64,000 nt of DNA from Lentzea sp. NBRC 105346 (GTDB lineage: Bacteria > Actinomycetota > Actinomycetes > Mycobacteriales > Pseudonocardiaceae). Below the pieces are notes generated by a model. It was not told the origin of the DNA. It saw only the letters and a program-made list of their open reading frames with translations, and made no database searches. Shown piece by piece: positions 35,217 through 51,926 of the stretch. Each line of letters begins with the position of its first letter. The first letter of the stretch is position 1. The stretch lies in assembly GCF_030269605.1 (NCBI RefSeq), contig NZ_BSTQ01000023.1, positions 62,001 to 126,000 of the forward strand, in the 5' to 3' direction. The translations under genes were made by a program, and so were the position numbers.

Positions 35217-37988
<2,772 letters not shown>

Positions 37989-44160: not shown

Positions 44161-45659
44161 CTGCGCTGACCGAGCTGATGGACTACGACGAGGTCGTCGA
44201 GAAGTACGACCCGGTGCTGGGCCTCGAGGTCCACGTCGAGCTGCACACCAACACGAAGATGTTCTGCGGCTGCGCGAACCTCTTCGGCGGTGAGCCGAAC
44301 ACGCACACCTGCCCGACGTGCCTGGGCCTGCCGGGCTCGCTGCCGGTCGTCAACGGCAAGGCGGTCGAGTCCGCGATCCGCATCGGCCTCGCGCTGAACT
44401 GCGAGATCGCCGAGTGGTGCCGGTTCGCCCGGAAGAACTACTTCTACCCGGACATGCCGAAGAACTTCCAGACGTCGCAGTACGACGAGCCGATCGCCTT
44501 CAACGGCTGGCTCGACGTGACGCTGGACGACGGCGAGGTCATCCGGGTCGAGATCGAGCGCGCGCACATGGAGGAGGACACGGGCAAGTCGCTGCACGTC
44601 GGCGGCGCGACCGGTCGCATCCACGGCGCGGAGCACTCGCTGCTCGACTACAACCGCGCGGGCGTGCCGCTGATCGAGATCGTCACGAAGATGATCCCGA
44701 ACACCGGCCGGCGTGCCCCCGAGGTGGCCCGCGCATACGTCACCGCGCTGCGCGACCTGCTCAAGGCGCTCGACGTGTCCGACGTCCGCATGGACCAGGG
44801 CTCGCTGCGCTGCGACGCGAACGTGTCGCTGTCGCCCAAGACCACGGGCGAGCTCGGCACGCGCACGGAGACGAAGAACGTCAACTCCCTGCGCAGCGTC
44901 GAGCGCGCCGTGCGGTTCGAGATGACGCGTCAGGCGGCGGTTCTGGAAGCCGGTGGCAAGGTCACCCAGGAGACCCGGCATTTCGACGAGTCCTCCGGTT
45001 CGACCTCTTCCGGTCGTACCAAGGAGACCGCCGAGGACTACCGGTACTTCCCGGAGCCCGACCTCGTCCCGATCGCGCCGTCGCGCGAGTGGGTCGAGGA
45101 GCTGCGCGGCACGCTGCCGGAGCTGCCGTGGGAGCGCCGCGCGCGCATCCAGAAGGAGTGGAACCTCACCGACGAGGTGCTGCGCGACCTGGTCAACGCC
45201 GGTGCGCTGGACCTGATCGCGGCGACCGTCGAGGCCGGTTCCTCGCCCGACGAGGCCCGCTCGTGGTGGGTGTCCTACCTGGCGCAGCAGGCCAACACGC
45301 GCGGTATCGAGCTGTCCGAGCTGCCGATCACGCCCGCGCAGGTCGCGCGCGTGATCGAGCTGGTCAACTCGGGTGCGCTGACGAACAAGCTCGCCCGTGA
45401 GGCCGTGAACGGCGTGCTTGAAGGCGAGGGTTCGCCCGACGAGGTCGTCGCCTCACGCGGCCTGCAGGTCGTGTCCGACGACTCCGCGCTGGAGAAGGCG
45501 GTCGACGACGCGCTGGCGGCGCAGCCGGACGTCGCGCAGAAGATCCGCGACGGCAAGGTCCAGGCCGCGGGCGCGATCATCGGTGCGGTCATGAAGGCCA
45601 TGAAGGGCCAGGCGGACGCCGCGCGCGTCCGTGAGATCGTCATCGCCCGCTGCTCGTAG
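44157..45659 (+). CDS. gatB: Asp-tRNA(Asn)/Glu-tRNA(Gln) amidotransferase subunit B
   Basis: The protein has 500 residues. GatB signatures are [53 protein letters not shown] and [10 protein letters not shown]. The C-terminal YqeY-like tail domain ends [21 protein letters not shown]. It binds the misacylated tRNA and carries out the ATP-dependent amide transfer. ATG at 44157 overlaps the small membrane gene by four bases. A 13-bp hairpin follows the stop. Confidence 0.97.
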
Positions 45660-45665
45660 CGCTCG

Positions 45666-45696
45666 GCCCGGCTGGTGCTACGTGCACCAGCCGGGC
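45666..45696 (+). terminator. Hairpin after gatB
   Basis: A perfect 13-bp stem (45666-45678 with 45684-45696, loop TACGT) begins six bases after the gatB stop. It has no T tract. The rest of the 280-base gap to 45940 holds no gene I can support. Confidence 0.75.
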
Positions 45697-45939
45697 TCGG
45701 CGATGTCTCGCAACGGGAGCGTGCCTCCGGACCGGGTCCGGGCATGGTCCGGCGCTGACCTCCCAGCGCAGCTCCTGTGCGTCGAACCCCCCCGGCTAGG
45801 CCGATCGGGCGATGCTGTTCCGATTTGTGAAGCCTGGGTGCGTCCACCTGTGTAACGCTTGCCCCTGTTGGCGGATATGGGGGTAGACGTCAACCACCCA
45901 AGGTGATCAACAGTAGTCCAAAAGAGGGGGGAATCTCAG

Positions 45940-46149
45940 ATGACTACGACTGAGCGCAAGGGCACCGGCGACGAGCCGGAGGACCGCAGCATCCTCGACG
46001 TGGTGAAGGACGTGATCGAGGACGTCTTCCACCACGACCACAAGCACGATCACGAGGCCGAGGACGAGCAGAAGAACCCGGCTGACCCAAAGAAGGACCC
46101 GGATCAGCCCGAACCGGACCCGTGCTGCGGGCCACCCATCCATTACTGA
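45940..46149 (+). CDS. Small His/Asp/Glu-rich protein upstream of the CHAT protease
   Basis: The protein has 69 residues and is highly charged. A short amphipathic helix (SILDVVKDVIEDVF, about 17-30) leads into HHDHKHDH (31-38), a likely metal-binding cluster. A disordered Asp/Pro/Lys stretch follows, and the protein ends CCGPPIHY with two adjacent cysteines (62, 63). No signal peptide. ATG at 45940 is supported by GAGGGGGGAATC. The TPR-CHAT gene begins 91 bases downstream in the same direction, with a hairpin between them. It may be the substrate, activator or inhibitor of the protease. No family recognised. Confidence 0.65.
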   Translation: MTTTERKGTGDEPEDRSILDVVKDVIEDVFHHDHKHDHEAEDEQKNPADPKKDPDQPEPDPCCGPPIHY

Positions 46150-46171
46150 GCGCCGCGCGCCCAGTGATCAC

Positions 46172-46206
46172 GGTCCGTCAACCAGGCGACGTCGGGTTGG
46201 CGGACC
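46172..46206 (+). other. Intercistronic hairpin upstream of the CHAT gene
   Basis: Arms 46172-46183 and 46195-46206 form a 12-bp stem with one wobble and an 11-base loop. It has no T tract. As with iniB-iniA, it may lower expression of the large downstream gene relative to the small upstream one. Confidence 0.55.
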
Positions 46207-46240
46207 GCATTTCGTTGTGTGTATGTGGTGAGATGCACCC

Positions 46241-48811
46241 ATGCGTGCCTCTGTCGTCGATCGAGCACGCGAGTTGCTCAACCGAGGCTCGGCCGCGACT
46301 GCTGCCTACCGGTATCCGACAGCGATTCGCACGCTCCGCCGCGGATTGAGCCTGCTCGATCGCGAGCAGACTGATCCCGCGCGGCACGAGGTACGCGCAC
46401 AGTTGCTGAGGTTCCTGGCCGCCTGTGTCGGTGAGACCGTCGGCCTGAGCGCCGCGGTCGTCCACCTCGACGAGGCCAGGACGGAAGCCAAGGCTGTCCC
46501 CGACCGCGAGGCCAGCGCACTGCTCACCGCATTGATCGACTACAGCCACGGTGTGCTCGTGATGCGGTCCGGTCAACCCGAGCGGTCCGTGGCGATGATC
46601 AGTGCCCTGGTCGATCACCTCGAGGCGCGCTCCGATGTGGAGGAAGACCCACGCCTCATTCACCTGCTCATGATGGCGCTGACCAGCCGGAGCTACGCGA
46701 CCGGCGCGATTCGGCGGCGCGACGAGGCCACCCGCGACCTGGAGCGCGTTATCACGGTCGCGCAGCAACGCGATCTTCCACTGTGGCACGGCTGGGGCAT
46801 GTACGGGCTCGGCAATCTGCACAAACAGTGCGGCGAGCTGGTCGAGGCGTTGCGCTGCTACGACGAAACCGAACGCGTCTTCCCCGACATGGACTTTGGC
46901 CTTCTGGCCCGCCTTCGGTTCGACCAGGCCGAAGCCATGCTGATGATCGGCCTATCCGACGAGGCGGCCAAGTACCTGGACGAAGCGTTGCCCGTCATGC
47001 GGCAGCAGCGTTTCGGACAGGAGCTGGCCGAGGTCGAGATGCTGCGCGCGACGGCGGCGCTGCAGGACGGCGAGCTGGACCTCGCCAGGAGGATGGCGCG
47101 GGCGTCATACCGGAAGCTGTTGCGCCGCAAGAGCACCTGGGCCTTGATGGCCGCGCTGATCATGTTGTGGGCCGATGGCAGGCACGCGCTGGAAACCGGC
47201 CGGATCCCGGTGTCGCTGGTGGAGCGGGCGTTGCAGCTCAGCGACCAGCTGGGCGACAACCACCTGGTCGACGAGTCCCGCTTGGCGCGTCTGTTCGCCG
47301 CCCGGCTGCAGATCCGCCGTCGACGGTTGGCCGAGGCGGAGGAATTGCTGGCTCAGATGCCTGGCCCGCGCGCCGTCACGCCCATCGACCACCGCATGCA
47401 GCGCCGGCTGTGCTTGGCGGAACTCGCGGTGGCGAAGGGAAACCTGCGCAGTGCGTTGATCCACGCGAAGCTGGGACTGGGTGAGCTGGGCCGGGTCCGC
47501 GACCGCATGGGCGGTCTCGAACTGGTGTCCGCGACCGCCGTGCACGGGCGCGAGCTGGGTGAGCTGGCGATCAGGTTGGTGTTGCAGGGCAACAACGCGC
47601 GCCGTCTGTTCAACTGGCTGGAGCTGACCCGTGCGCAGAGCTACCGGTATGAGCCTCTGGAGTCCATTGAGGACTCAGAGATCGCGCAACGCCTGTCCGA
47701 CGTACGGCAGCTGAGCCGAATCCTGTTGCGCGCCAGGCTGAACGGCGAGCCGAGCGCGGACCTCCAAGCGCAGCTGACCAGGGCCCTGCGCGAAATGAAC
47801 CGCCTCGGCTGGCGCGAACACAAATGGGGCAAGCCGCGCCCGATCGCGGGAGTCGCCGAGGTCCTCGCAGCACTGGGCGACCGAGCGATGGTCAACTTCG
47901 TCGCGTCCGACGGCGAGATGATCGCCGTGGTGCTGGCCGGTGGCGTCGTGCGCATGCGCAGGCTGGGGTCGGCGCAGGACGCGTTCGACGCCGCGCAGAA
48001 ACTGCACTTCGACCTCAACGCACTAGCCCCGGATCACCTGCCCGCGCCGCTGGCCGAGGTGATCGGCGCGTCGGCCCGTCGTGAGGCGGGCAAGCTCGAC
48101 GCTCAACTGATCCAGCCGCTGGCCGACCTGGTTGGCTCGCGCGAGCTCGTGTTCGTCCCGACCGGCGCTTTGTACGCGGTGCCTTGGGGTGTGCTGCCGT
48201 CGTTGCACGGCAGGCCCACGGTGACTGTCCCGTCCGCGACGACGTGGCTCGCGGCGGCCGGCAGCGGTCAGGCCGCGGCCCGGACCGTGCTGCTGGTGCA
48301 CGGGCCGGGCCTGGACTTCGCGGAGGGCGAGATCGATCGCCTGGCCGCGCACCACGAAACGGCCACGGTCCTGAAGGGCGATGCGGCGACCACGGCGGCG
48401 GTGCTCTACCGCCTCGACGGCGCCGACCTGGTGCACATCGCCGCCCACGGCGAGCACGAGCCGGAGAACGCCCTCTTCTCCCGCCTGGAACTCGTCGACG
48501 GGCCGATCTTCGCGCACGAACTGGGCCGCCTGCGCAAACCTCCCGCGCGTGTGGTGCTCGCCGCGTGCGAGTTGGCGCTGAACCGGATCCGGCCGGGTGA
48601 CGAGGCCCTCGGGTTCGCGGGCGCCATGCTCGCCGGCGGGACACGGACCGTGGTCGCCGTGACCAGCAAGGTCGGGGATGAGGCTTCCGCGGCTGCGATG
48701 GGTGACTACCACCGGGCGCTCGCGGCGGGGGCGGCGCCCGCGGTGGCGCTGGCGGAGGCGATGGCGAAGGACCCCTACCGGCGGCCGTTCGTGTGCCTCG
48801 GGTTCGGGTAG
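46241..48811 (+). CDS. TPR-CHAT caspase-like protease
   Basis: The protein has 856 residues. The first 500 or so are helical tetratricopeptide-like repeats (for example LRFLAACVGETVGLSAAVVH, LYGLGNLHKQCGELVEALRC-like GLGNLHKQCGELVEALRCYD). The C-terminal third is a CHAT domain, with the caspase-type dyad in HIAAHGEHEP (H736) and VVLAACELALN (C776), and the closing GFAGAMLAGGTRTVVAVTSKV. CHAT proteases belong to clan CD; relatives cleave partner proteins in bacterial immunity and cell death (gasdermins, Csx30). Both catalytic residues are intact. It follows the small His-rich gene and stands alone otherwise. Confidence 0.88.
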   Translation: MRASVVDRARELLNRGSAATAAYRYPTAIRTLRRGLSLLDREQTDPARHEVRAQLLRFLAACVGETVGLSAAVVHLDEARTEAKAVPDREASALLTALIDYSHGVLVMRSGQPERSVAMISALVDHLEARSDVEEDPRLIHLLMMALTSRSYATGAIRRRDEATRDLERVITVAQQRDLPLWHGWGMYGLGNLHKQCGELVEALRCYDETERVFPDMDFGLLARLRFDQAEAMLMIGLSDEAAKYLDEALPVMRQQRFGQELAEVEMLRATAALQDGELDLARRMARASYRKLLRRKSTWALMAALIMLWADGRHALETGRIPVSLVERALQLSDQLGDNHLVDESRLARLFAARLQIRRRRLAEAEELLAQMPGPRAVTPIDHRMQRRLCLAELAVAKGNLRSALIHAKLGLGELGRVRDRMGGLELVSATAVHGRELGELAIRLVLQGNNARRLFNWLELTRAQSYRYEPLESIEDSEIAQRLSDVRQLSRILLRARLNGEPSADLQAQLTRALREMNRLGWREHKWGKPRPIAGVAEVLAALGDRAMVNFVASDGEMIAVVLAGGVVRMRRLGSAQDAFDAAQKLHFDLNALAPDHLPAPLAEVIGASARREAGKLDAQLIQPLADLVGSRELVFVPTGALYAVPWGVLPSLHGRPTVTVPSATTWLAAAGSGQAAARTVLLVHGPGLDFAEGEIDRLAAHHETATVLKGDAATTAAVLYRLDGADLVHIAAHGEHEPENALFSRLELVDGPIFAHELGRLRKPPARVVLAACELALNRIRPGDEALGFAGAMLAGGTRTVVAVTSKVGDEASAAAMGDYHRALAAGAAPAVALAEAMAKDPYRRPFVCLGFG

Positions 48812-48876
48812 GCCTGCCCGGCTTTGCCTGCCTGTGCTGAAGGCACGCTGCCCCCGCGCGCTTCCTATTTCGCTCA

Positions 48877-48906
48877 AGCGTACCGCCGGGGTCTGACAAT
48901 TCCGCG
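48877..48906 (+). repeat. Dispersed GGGGTCTGACAATTCCGCG motif, copy 3
   Basis: This 30-base copy matches 56078-56107 at 28 of 30 positions; both begin AGCGTACCG and contain GGGGTCTGACAAT. It lies 66 bases after the CHAT gene stop. Confidence 0.8.
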
Positions 48907-49154
48907 GCTCCGTGCCTGGTCGCCGCTCGCCTGTGGACAACTTTTCGCGGGGTTCACCGAGGGCGGAAACCGGTAGCGCTCCCATACCACGGCAGGAAGG
49001 CGTAGGCCGATCGGCGGCCCCATAAAGGGCTAGGCCGTTCGAGTGGTTGTACGTCTTTCATCCATGTGAACACACTGCTCACGCGTGATTTGCGTCCAAA
49101 CCGCGATCGCGGTTAGTGAACTTCTCTCGCTTGCGAGAGCCGTTCTGTGCCACT

Positions 49155-49170
49155 CTTGGTCTAGACCCAG
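49155..49170. promoter_or_regulatory. DasR-type (dre) palindrome, third copy
   Basis: CTTGGTCTAGACCCAG closely matches the DasR consensus and contains the invariant GGTCTAGACC core. TTGACA follows immediately at 49171, so a bound DasR dimer would block a promoter -35 element. The next gene is the M14 peptidase at 49437. Confidence 0.75.
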
Positions 49171-49416
49171 TTGACAGTTTGTCAGCGGGCCAATTTCTTG
49201 ACCGAGGGGAATTGGCCACGGTCTCCGCGGCCGCTCAGGGGGTGAGGCCGGGGTTGCCGTGTCCATGCCGATGGCCCGCTGGCCGGCGACGAGCCGACCG
49301 GCGGGCCATCGTGCGATTCGCGGGGCCGTGAAGGCGTCGCGAGGGGGTTCGAACAGCACCCGCGTAACGAAAAGTGTGAACGCCAAGGGCCATTCGCTCG
49401 CTAGACGATAGTTGAC

Positions 49417-49430
49417 TGACCGATTAGTCA
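49417..49430. promoter_or_regulatory. TetR-like operator candidate
   Basis: TGACCGATTAGTCA is a 14-base imperfect palindrome of the form often bound by TetR-family repressors. It is centred 13 bases before the ATG of the M14 peptidase gene, where it would overlap the ribosome-binding region or a late promoter. No regulator gene is adjacent. Confidence 0.4.
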
Positions 49431-49436
49431 GATGCC

Positions 49437-51926
49437 ATGCGTAGCACCCTGTTGGCCACGCTGGTCGCGATGACAGCCGCGCTGGTCGTGCCGGCGTCCG
49501 GAACCGCCCAGCCAGCCCCGCCGCACCACGGCCGCGGCGAGGAGCCCGGCAACGGCATCGAGCGCAACGAGATCGCCGCACTCGATCCGCCGACCGCTCT
49601 GCAAACCGCCAGCCAGAACAAGCCCGGTAAGTACCAGGGCTATCCGCGCAAGACCGACCTGCGCGTGTACCCGACGGACCCCGCCGACAAGTCGATCAAG
49701 CTCGGACTCGCGCCGTACCACGCGATCGCGCCGAAGCTGAACGCGTTGCAACAGCAGAGCGACCGGGTGAGCGTCGAGGTCGTCGGGCAGTCCGGACTCG
49801 GGCGCGACCTCTACCTCGTCACCCTCACCGCACCCGAGAGCCCGGCGCAGACCCGGCAGCAGGAGCGTTGGCGCGCCCGGATCGAAGAAGGACACAAAGC
49901 GCCGAGTCTGTACAAGGCGCCGATCTGGATCAACAACAACATCCACGGCAACGAGTGGGAGGGCACCGACGGCGCGCTGCGCGTGATCGAGTACCTGGCG
50001 ACCTCACAACAACAGAACGTCAAAGATCTCCTGCGCCGCAGCAGGATCTACTTCAACGTCACCGCGAACCCGGACGGCCGCGTCGCCGGGCAGCGGCAGA
50101 ACGCGAGCGGGTTCGACCTCAACCGGGACTTCGCCACCAGTTCGCAGACCGAGAACCGGGTCATGCGCGACATTGTCGAACGCACGCAGCCGCTGATGAT
50201 GCTCGACGAGCACGGGTACGTGGAGAACACGCTCATCGAGCCGACCACGCCGCCGCACGGGCAGAACTACGACTTCGACCTCTACATCAAGCACGGCTAC
50301 GCCAACGGCCTCGCGATGGAGGCGAAGGTCAAGGCGCTGGGCCACCCCGAGACCGCGAAGCCGGAGATCCCGTTCCGCGACTACGAGCCCGGCGTGTGGG
50401 ACGGCTGGGCGCCGATCTACACCGCGCAGTACGCGATGTACCACGGCGCGATCTCGTACACGATCGAGATTCCGCAGAACGTCAACGGATCCGACTACGA
50501 CAACCTGCCGAAGGAGGAACTGCAGCGGCGCAGCCGGATCAACACCGACGTCGTCGAGTCGACGATCAAGACGACCATCGGCTACGTCGACGACCACCGC
50601 AACGAGCTGATCGCCAACCAGGCCGAGATGTTCCGGCGCGGCGCCGCGGGCGAGCCGCAGCGGGAGATTCCGGACGGGTTCGTGCCCGGCTTCGGGCCGG
50701 AGGACCGCTACCGCACGGAGTTCCCGCGCGCGTATGTGCTCACGCCCGAGCGATCGCCCGCCGCTACGGCTCGGCTCGTCGACCACCTGATCGCCCACGA
50801 CGTCCGGGTGAAACGGGCCGACGCGCCGTTCTCGTTGGGCGGCAAGCGATACGACGCCGGGACGTACGTCGTCGACATGCATCAACCCAAGCGCGCGCTG
50901 GCGAACGTCATGCTCGAGGCGGGTAGCGACATCTCGGCCAAGGTGCCGGTGATGTACGACATCTCGGGCTGGAGCCACCGGCTGCTCTGGGGTGCCTCGG
51001 TCGACATCGTCAAGTCCGGGCCGCTGTACTTCCGCGGCCGTGAGGTGGCCGCCGCGTCGCCGACCGGTGGTGTCGACGCGCCTCCTGGACGCGACCTCGC
51101 CCTCACGCTCAACGACCCCAAGGACGTCAGCGCCGTCAACGACCTGCTCGCCCGCGGCATCGAGCTGCGGCGCCAGGACGACGGCACGGTGGTCGTCCCG
51201 GCGAGTGCCCGCGTGCAGGCGATCGAGGTCGCCGACCGGTACGGCGTCCGGTTCACCGCGGCCGCACAGAACGGTGGCAAACCGTTGCAGCGCAAGGTGC
51301 TCGCGGCGGCGGTCAGCCCGGACGAGCTGAAGGCGTTGCGGGACCTCGGTTTCGAGGTGCGGCCGGTGTCCACCGCCGTGCTGAACGCCGGATTCGACTG
51401 GTCCCGGATCGACGTGCTCATGGTGTCGTCGGGCCTGCGGTACGAGCAGCTCAACGCGAACGCCAAGGCGTCGCTGGAGGCGTTCCTGCAACGTGGCGGT
51501 GTCGTCACGCGAGGCGCCACGGGCGGCCGGTTCAACGTCGAGGCCAAGCTGCTCGCCGCCAAGCCGGTGGCCGGCTGGGAGGACGCGAACGGTGTCATCA
51601 GCGTGGTCAACGGCACGGGTCCGGTCGGCACCGGCGCACTCGCCACCTCGTTCGTCTACGCCCCGCAGTGGTTCACCGACCTCGGCACCGGCGTGAACAT
51701 CGAGCAGCGCTACGCCGACCACCCGCTGATCGCCGGGCACTGGCGGGCGCGCGCGGACGGCTCCGGTGGCCAGGCCGCCGCGGCCGGTCAGGCGGTCGTC
51801 GTCTCCGGCACGTCAGCCAACGGCACGCGCGCCGTGCTGTTCGGCACGGAACCGATGTTCCGCGACCACCCCAAGGGCCTGTACGCACAGGTCGCGCGCG
51901 CCATCTTCTGGTCGGGCTCGCGCTAG
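49437..51926 (+). CDS. Secreted M14-family zinc carboxypeptidase-like protein
   Basis: The protein has 829 residues. A signal peptide ends near SGTAQPAP (about 22-27). The peptidase domain has the zinc motif HGNEWEG (H170, E173), a NVTANPDGR/NRDFATSSQTE substrate-binding block, and a candidate third ligand near LDEHGYVEN (H259). A long C-terminal region (about 400-829) has beta-rich repeats and a glutamine-amidotransferase-like or ThuA-like stretch (ISVVNGTGPVG), typical of large secreted M14 members. It should trim peptides or cross-links outside the cell. ATG at 49437 follows a structured leader with a DasR-type site. Confidence 0.88.
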   Translation: MRSTLLATLVAMTAALVVPASGTAQPAPPHHGRGEEPGNGIERNEIAALDPPTALQTASQNKPGKYQGYPRKTDLRVYPTDPADKSIKLGLAPYHAIAPKLNALQQQSDRVSVEVVGQSGLGRDLYLVTLTAPESPAQTRQQERWRARIEEGHKAPSLYKAPIWINNNIHGNEWEGTDGALRVIEYLATSQQQNVKDLLRRSRIYFNVTANPDGRVAGQRQNASGFDLNRDFATSSQTENRVMRDIVERTQPLMMLDEHGYVENTLIEPTTPPHGQNYDFDLYIKHGYANGLAMEAKVKALGHPETAKPEIPFRDYEPGVWDGWAPIYTAQYAMYHGAISYTIEIPQNVNGSDYDNLPKEELQRRSRINTDVVESTIKTTIGYVDDHRNELIANQAEMFRRGAAGEPQREIPDGFVPGFGPEDRYRTEFPRAYVLTPERSPAATARLVDHLIAHDVRVKRADAPFSLGGKRYDAGTYVVDMHQPKRALANVMLEAGSDISAKVPVMYDISGWSHRLLWGASVDIVKSGPLYFRGREVAAASPTGGVDAPPGRDLALTLNDPKDVSAVNDLLARGIELRRQDDGTVVVPASARVQAIEVADRYGVRFTAAAQNGGKPLQRKVLAAAVSPDELKALRDLGFEVRPVSTAVLNAGFDWSRIDVLMVSSGLRYEQLNANAKASLEAFLQRGGVVTRGATGGRFNVEAKLLAAKPVAGWEDANGVISVVNGTGPVGTGALATSFVYAPQWFTDLGTGVNIEQRYADHPLIAGHWRARADGSGGQAAAAGQAVVVSGTSANGTRAVLFGTEPMFRDHPKGLYAQVARAIFWSGSR

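Follow-up and report, generated by a model that had tools for sequence, protein, structure and literature searches.

A small motif-bearing partner gene paired with a TPR-CHAT protease gene in Lentzea

Introduction

This analysis concerns a two-gene locus of Lentzea sp. NBRC 105346 (family Pseudonocardiaceae), located in a stretch of 64,000 nucleotides (nt) of contig NZ_BSTQ01000023.1 (assembly GCF_030269605.1, positions 62,001 to 126,000, forward strand), which we call the window. An open reading frame (ORF) for a protein of 69 amino acids (aa) is followed on the same strand, after a gap of 91 nt, by an ORF for an 856-aa protein that joins tetratricopeptide repeats (TPR) to a CHAT protease domain. 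The original prediction held that the two could form an undescribed protease system, by analogy with known systems in defense, in which the small protein serves as substrate or as a sensor, perhaps metal- or thiol-responsive. The pairing turns out to be real and not accidental, and no publication on it was found among the matches listed from open-licence papers; a metal or thiol response as a general rule and a role in phage defense are unsupported. Taken together, the comparisons below suggest an undescribed protease-and-partner pair whose members evolve together.

The protease and its small partner

Residues 614-841 of the large protein match the Pfam CHAT family (PF12770) with 102.4 bits against a cut-off of 24 (E 4e-29), and the AlphaFold2 (AF2) model has the caspase/separase-like protease fold expected of that family. 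The predicted dyad, H736 and C776, is intact: both residues are invariant in an alignment of 17 CHAT rows, and a His/Cys catalytic dyad is present in all 81 rows examined (Cys motif in 81/81, His motif in 80/81, with the remaining row, L002, reading AHGVHA and keeping the His). The long TPR part also finds support in the AF2 model, where a helical repeat region spans approximately residues 4-470, the Pfam TPR matches being weak and below the cut-off. The predicted fold of this part resembles the pheromone receptors Rap, NprR, and PlcR. Two CHAT genes from other loci are possibly damaged, namely L048 (G170:C600:9423-11834), whose match to the query ends at residue 808, and L261 (G022:C1:6004856-6007351), which has an internal TAG.

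The small ORF begins with ATG behind a strong ribosome-binding site, GAGGGGGG, and has a clear coding signature (GC per codon position 0.70/0.34/0.86, codon score 24). Its translation does contain both the HHDHKHDH stretch and the C-terminal CCGPPIHY that had drawn attention to it. In 11 aligned members from the genus, P57, P61, and C62-C63-G64 are invariant, and in most of the others a single residue separates P61 from the CC pair. The protein has no significant match in Pfam (sole hit DUF5321, E 0.054), and as a single query against 150 genomes of the family it gave only chance-level matches (best non-self E 0.004). Because it found nothing above chance outside its own genome, the pairing was surveyed via the protease.

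Conservation of the pairing

A CHAT match at E 1e-150 or better was obtained at 129 places in 96 of 200 family genomes, and the upstream DNA was read for all of these and for 10 further loci from named genomes. Three kinds of neighbor were found: a small acidic ORF (56 places), a conserved protein of ~155 aa (60 places), and a subtilase (13 places). For L149, L161, L163, and L166 the small ORF escaped the coding-score filters and was identified by direct reading, and the filters also missed the true start of L065; L088 carries a CVSGGC small ORF and is counted as a small-partner locus.

Within the genus, each of the 24 genomes searched has one such CHAT gene, and a profile search places a small CCG gene in all 24, by coordinates 85-125 nt upstream of it; the profile was built from 11 of these genomes, so that 13 are independent. 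In a quick maximum-likelihood tree of 118 CHAT rows, the 61 rows with a small partner fall together on one side of a branch whose support is 100, and the split was the same, with 60 such rows, in an earlier tree of 81. None of the 61 CHATs on the branch of the window lacks a small partner, and a small acidic protein is the sole type of gene linked to them. The subtilase-linked CHATs (13 rows) and the six rows with sigma factor, 155-aa protein, and small protein each form a single group as well (support 100 for both). Eight loci and L178, all duplicates of included loci, and L261 with its internal TAG were left out of trees and counts.

The original prediction had named two observations that would make the pairing accidental, homologous CHAT genes without the small gene and a small gene equally common elsewhere. 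The first does not occur on this branch, and the 24 genus genomes hold a single orphan copy of the CCG gene. With 61/61 in the branch and 24/24 in the genus, accidental synteny was rejected. The orphan (G156:C12:171294-171440; L211, L235) lies directly before a gene for a DUF6338 membrane protein and after genes that, named by eye, resemble dppD and dppF.

Among 150 family genomes, a GGPYKPT-type query found its target only beside CHAT genes, in five genomes; one further match was weak and unrelated, and the query is insensitive, as the GGPYQTH-type gene of G110 escaped it. A class-wide search, with only three candidates scored per genome, gave a CHAT at E 1e-100 or better in 2 of 296 genomes (that of the window included), both in the family; plasmids and phages yielded one partial match each.

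The features of the locus are collected in the table. Upstream of the pair lie gatA and gatB, and downstream follows an M14 carboxypeptidase gene. gatB adjoins the pair in 33 of 60 loci and the remainder occupy other sites, while the genes 3' of CHAT vary among 26 loci read; the constant unit is small gene plus CHAT. An Rfam scan of 45600-49500 gave no match.

Table. Features of the small gene-CHAT locus, in window coordinates
Feature	Position	Strand	Basis
21-base pair (bp) block GCGTCCACCTGTGTAACGCTT, candidate promoter/operator	45840-45860	+	Block shared with GGPY-type loci, 100 nt upstream of small ORF
Ribosome-binding site of small ORF, GAGGGGGG	45924-45931	+	Sequence; conserved in 11 aligned genus members
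Small partner gene (acidic product of 69 aa that lacks a hydrophobic segment)	45940-46149	+	ORF, coding signature, genus homologues
HHDHKHDH stretch, residues 31-38, not conserved	46030-46053	+	Sequence, His counts
Motif PCCGPPIHY, residues 61-69	46120-46146	+	Alignment of 11 genus members
GC-rich hairpin between small ORF and CHAT, candidate attenuator without T-run	46171-46207	+	z -2.7
TPR-CHAT protease gene, 856 aa	46241-48811	+	ORF, Pfam match, alignment, AF2 model
Predicted TPR superhelix, ~residues 4-470, fold like peptide-binding TPR proteins	46250-47650	+	AF2 model, fold comparison
C-terminal part, residues 480-856, predicted separase/Craspase-like protease fold	47678-48808	+	Model fold comparison
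CHAT domain, residues 614-841	48080-48763	+	Pfam match
Catalytic His736 codon	48446-48448	+	Sequence, alignment
Catalytic Cys776 codon	48566-48568	+	Sequence, alignment

Motifs and selection in the small partners

The statistics on small proteins cover the first 60 loci, the set as it stood before L265 and the six sigma-linked small proteins joined it. These 60 partners are acidic proteins of 46-145 aa, rich in Pro, Gly, Asp, and Glu. Their sequence is replaced between clades, and every clade retains a motif of its own: CCG in 11, CxGGC and relatives in 17, GGP[YF] in 24, and GPVHH, GPVQQ, GGYHH, or GTYPF in 8. Sequence homology between the types is unsupported (best hhalign E 0.027 over 10 columns).

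A metal- or thiol-responsive sensor, in which the His cluster and the CC pair bind metal or become oxidized and so switch the protease, has the invariant CCG of the 11 aligned genus members in its favor, as well as Cys in 28 of 60 partners, an additional HxH or HH in 13 of the 17 CxGGC-type proteins, and a CxxC..H stretch, seen by eye, in four of the six sigma-linked small proteins. At least five His are nonetheless found in only 3 of the 11 genus proteins and in 11 of the 60 overall, so the His cluster is not a general trait. With 32 partners devoid of Cys and 49 with fewer than five His, such a response is not a common principle of the branch but at most a lineage-specific addition, and we consider the sensor highly improbable as an account of the pair.

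Motif copies number two to six in 30 of the 32 repeat-type partners. The variable part of the GGP[YF] unit has an identity of 0.97 within a protein versus 0.55 between proteins (0 of 2000 shuffles), a contrast that is inflated by relatedness. At three residues left unfixed by the pattern, these copies have a synonymous divergence of 0.32 and a nonsynonymous divergence of 0.015; judged from these values, the copies are under purifying selection and not recent. Given that inflation, and the constant order of the units across some species (L049, L068, L083), we make no case for gene conversion. In the rest of the protein change is rapid, with pairwise ratios of nonsynonymous to synonymous change (dN/dS) of 0.16-1.97 for the small gene versus 0.07-0.43 for CHAT.

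Repeated short units behind an acidic, leader-like N-terminus also bring to mind a precursor of a peptide signal or of a ribosomally synthesized and post-translationally modified peptide (RiPP), from which CHAT would excise the repeated cores as signal or product. The multiple cores in those 30 of 32 repeat-type proteins, the likeness of the TPR fold to Rap, NprR, and PlcR, the hairpin after the small gene, and the position of the orphan copy just after the dppD/dppF-like genes (named by eye) all fit such a role. Yet no hydrophobic segment exists in any of the 60 partners, the highest mean hydropathy over 15 residues being 1.1, and the flanks, read mostly by eye, contain no modifying enzyme or exporter as a constant neighbor. 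We regard a precursor as quite unlikely.

Related CHAT loci

In the sigma-linked group, represented by L002 (G000:C12:45680-48199) and 59 other places (e.g., L157, L170, L182, L240, and L273), a sigma factor gene is followed by the ~155-aa protein and a TPR-CHAT; the sigma factor precedes the ~155-aa protein wherever inspected. The sigma factor belongs to Sigma70_r2, the ~155-aa protein has a weak carboxypeptidase-regulatory-like match, and the 155-aa proteins that were read lack tandem-motif repeats. In gene order this triad resembles CASP-sigma/Csx30/Csx29, and this likeness, helped by a match to DdvA, suggests a relay of the Craspase type that operates without CRISPR. A sigma gene also lies upstream at two small-partner loci, L149 and L162.

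Six of the 60 ~155-aa loci carry a small tandem-motif ORF in addition. They form a clade separate from the window's branch, come from one genus (g31; L262, L264, L267, L268, L269, and L270) and have sigma factor, 155-aa protein, small tandem-motif protein, and TPR-CHAT in a row. Their motifs are GFHDNS (twice), GHVGTGS (eight times), GHFDGG (three times), GHIGTGS (twice), GYHDS (twice), and GHHEGN (twice). These loci help the interpretation of the motifs and leave our estimates for the competing explanations unchanged. The presence of both genes weakens the idea that the small gene replaced the 155-aa middle gene, and a derivation of the small protein from the N-terminus of the 155-aa protein is likewise unsupported (hhalign E 0.13 at best).

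All 13 CHAT-linked subtilases (L146, L164, L172, L179, L181, L185, L186, L247-L250, L254, and L260) have tandem motifs in the linker before their S8 catalytic domain, either four to six copies of PFG[SNH]G or PYGGG, or two copies of PVNHG, PVSNG, PVAHG, or PVSHG. In the first seven linkers, synonymous differences (pS) amount to 0.49 and nonsynonymous ones (pN) to 0.013, both conditioned on the pattern. The likeness of these motifs to GPVHH was judged by eye. The paralogue L004 in the window's own genome lies behind a subtilase-like ORF that has no repeat of this kind.

DUF6338 genes (G000:C3:517856-518470, which is L226, and L227, L233, and L239) are found near CHAT-, caspase-, or TIR-like genes, with domains assigned by eye, and some of them are followed by an ORF of 47-51 aa. 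It is possible that the DUF6338 protein is a membrane effector of caspase-like systems.

Upstream block and intergenic hairpin

With 0-2 mismatches, the GCGTCCACCTGTGTAACGCTT block is present in the window and in 23 of 24 GGPY-type loci, there 113-127 nt (in one case 216) before the small ORF. Up to three mismatches, it is absent from 10 other loci of the same genus and from 26 others among the 60. The pattern was derived from alignments of these same loci; it matches once in the genome of the window and once each in three GGPY genomes at 0-1 mismatch, whereas another genome of the same genus has only three matches, each with three mismatches, and the reversed control has one. As the block is common to the CCG gene of the window and nearly all GGPY genes, it suggests one ancestral small gene whose product may have changed its motif.

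The hairpin between the two ORFs is not called a terminator by a terminator scan. Hairpins scoring at least 10 occur in 54 of 60 small-CHAT gaps versus 20 of 300 dinucleotide shuffles. Of the regions that precede the small ORF 3 of 60 have one, of the stretches within CHAT 1 of 60, and of the gaps in the sigma group none of 13, but 5 of 6 gaps in the subtilase group have one as well. Such a hairpin, together with Pro-rich motifs and fast divergence outside them, could be expected if the small ORF were a cis-acting leader, where ribosomes stall at the Pro/Gly motifs to control read-through and the peptide itself has no target. The motifs, however, are distributed over the length of the ORF, differ in copy number, and are maintained as amino acid sequence despite synonymous change, comparable ones occur within subtilases, and sigma-linked small genes do without the hairpin. 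We consider a leader very improbable.

Securin, the inhibitor of separase, is a disordered protein, and the small protein could in a similar, securin- or antitoxin-like way inhibit CHAT, its motifs filling the groove or active site until loss under stress frees the protease. Consistent with this are the absence of any CHAT without a small protein among the 61 of the branch, the coevolving motif, the separase-like fold predicted for CHAT, and the hairpins ahead of CHAT (54 of 60 gaps), which would agree with an excess of inhibitor. One to six motif copies are needless for plain inhibition, however, and motifs in subtilase linkers are more typical of cleavage. We hold an inhibitor to be unlikely, although likelier than the other alternatives.

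Phage defense

Phage defense, to which the original prediction pointed, finds no support. All genomes of the genus that were searched carry the pair, which lies beside gatA-gatB in the window, and PADLOC gave no significant match to it (for CHAT the best was BovA at E 0.027, and the small protein matched no model). Fixation, a housekeeping locus, and the lack of a PADLOC match argue against a patchy defense system, and a role in cell death or development may be compatible with this evidence. Among the ten surrounding ORFs, PADLOC reports one match, to the candidate model PDC-S48, at the end of the ORF at 35742-37985 of the window (E 1.5e-8), ~8 kb before the pair.

A dedicated client of the protease?

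In our view, the small protein is most likely a substrate or docked ligand of the protease, as with separase or Craspase. More specifically, we give about even odds to a dedicated, motif-bearing client that docks through this motif and in most likelihood is cut by the protease. This explanation draws on the obligate, motif-bearing, and coevolving partner, the intact dyad, and the peptide-receptor-like TPR part, and furthermore on comparable motifs in interdomain linkers of other CHAT-linked proteins.

The two genes would then make up a module in which a TPR-CHAT protease reads the motif of a disordered carrier. Docking of the motif of the lineage would probably fall to the TPR superhelix or to a face of the protease, the motif being CCG-PP here and CxGGC, GGPYKPTxDP, or GPVHHxTEP elsewhere, and the CHAT domain would cut the carrier at or beside each copy once a signal activates the protease. 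The intergenic hairpin might keep the level of protease below that of the carrier. We infer the protease-substrate relation, and with it binding, cleavage, carrier excess, and the activating signal, from the comparisons above. The motif linkers of the subtilases could be mere spacers, and none of the six sigma-plus-small loci has the hairpin, which weakens the argument for carrier excess.

A broader, more doubtful proposal is that TPR-CHATs coevolve in a lock-and-key manner with lineage-specific tandem-motif clients, the motifs being carried by a stand-alone mini-protein in the window's branch, by a mini-protein that joins a sigma relay in a separate clade, or by a subtilase linker, and perhaps also delivered to a DUF6338 membrane protein. 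If true, one CHAT family would run several proteolytic relays outside CRISPR, with motifs rewritten in each lineage.

Comparison with known systems

To our knowledge, substrates are known for only a few bacterial CHAT proteases, which take part in CRISPR or gasdermin defense. The protease of the pair is chromosomal and fixed, and its obligate partner is easy to synthesize and has a motif that varies between lineages, so that substrate choice can be tested by partner swaps. Should the client proposal be correct, actinomycetes would possess protease-motif pairs that are orthogonal by nature, along with a caspase-like relay that lies outside phage defense.

Bacterial gasdermin systems, like the pair of the window, place a caspase-like protease beside a smaller gene. 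The partner here differs in being an acidic protein of 69 aa without hydrophobic segment or Pfam gasdermin match. Multi-core RiPP precursors share with the small partners a leader-like N-terminus and a repeated short core, but no modifying enzyme is among the constant neighbors in the flanks, read mostly by eye. In contrast to the RRNPP systems (Rap-Phr, NprR-NprX, and PlcR-PapR), the TPR part is fused to a CHAT protease, and the small gene lies upstream and has, by hydropathy, no export-like hydrophobic segment. Separase with Scc1 and securin differs in that the protease of the window is bacterial, measures 856 aa, and has a linked partner of 46-145 aa, with no cohesin-like substrate known for the pair.

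The nearest known system is Craspase of type III-E CRISPR, composed of Csx29 (a TPR-CHAT), Csx30, Csx31, and CASP-sigma. Its TPR-CHAT cleaves Csx30, an inhibitor of CASP-sigma (PMC10028731), and the cleavage sites differ between orthologues (PMC11106740). The CHAT of the window reaches 20.6 bits against the NCBIfam Csx29 cut-off of 300 and is hence not Csx29 by the curated model; the pair is flanked by gatA-gatB and an M14 carboxypeptidase gene, no genome-wide search for Cas7-11 having been made, and the partners, at 46-145 aa, have no significant Pfam match. The sigma- and subtilase-linked loci point to a broader range of CHAT relays, among them one that parallels the sigma relay of Craspase.
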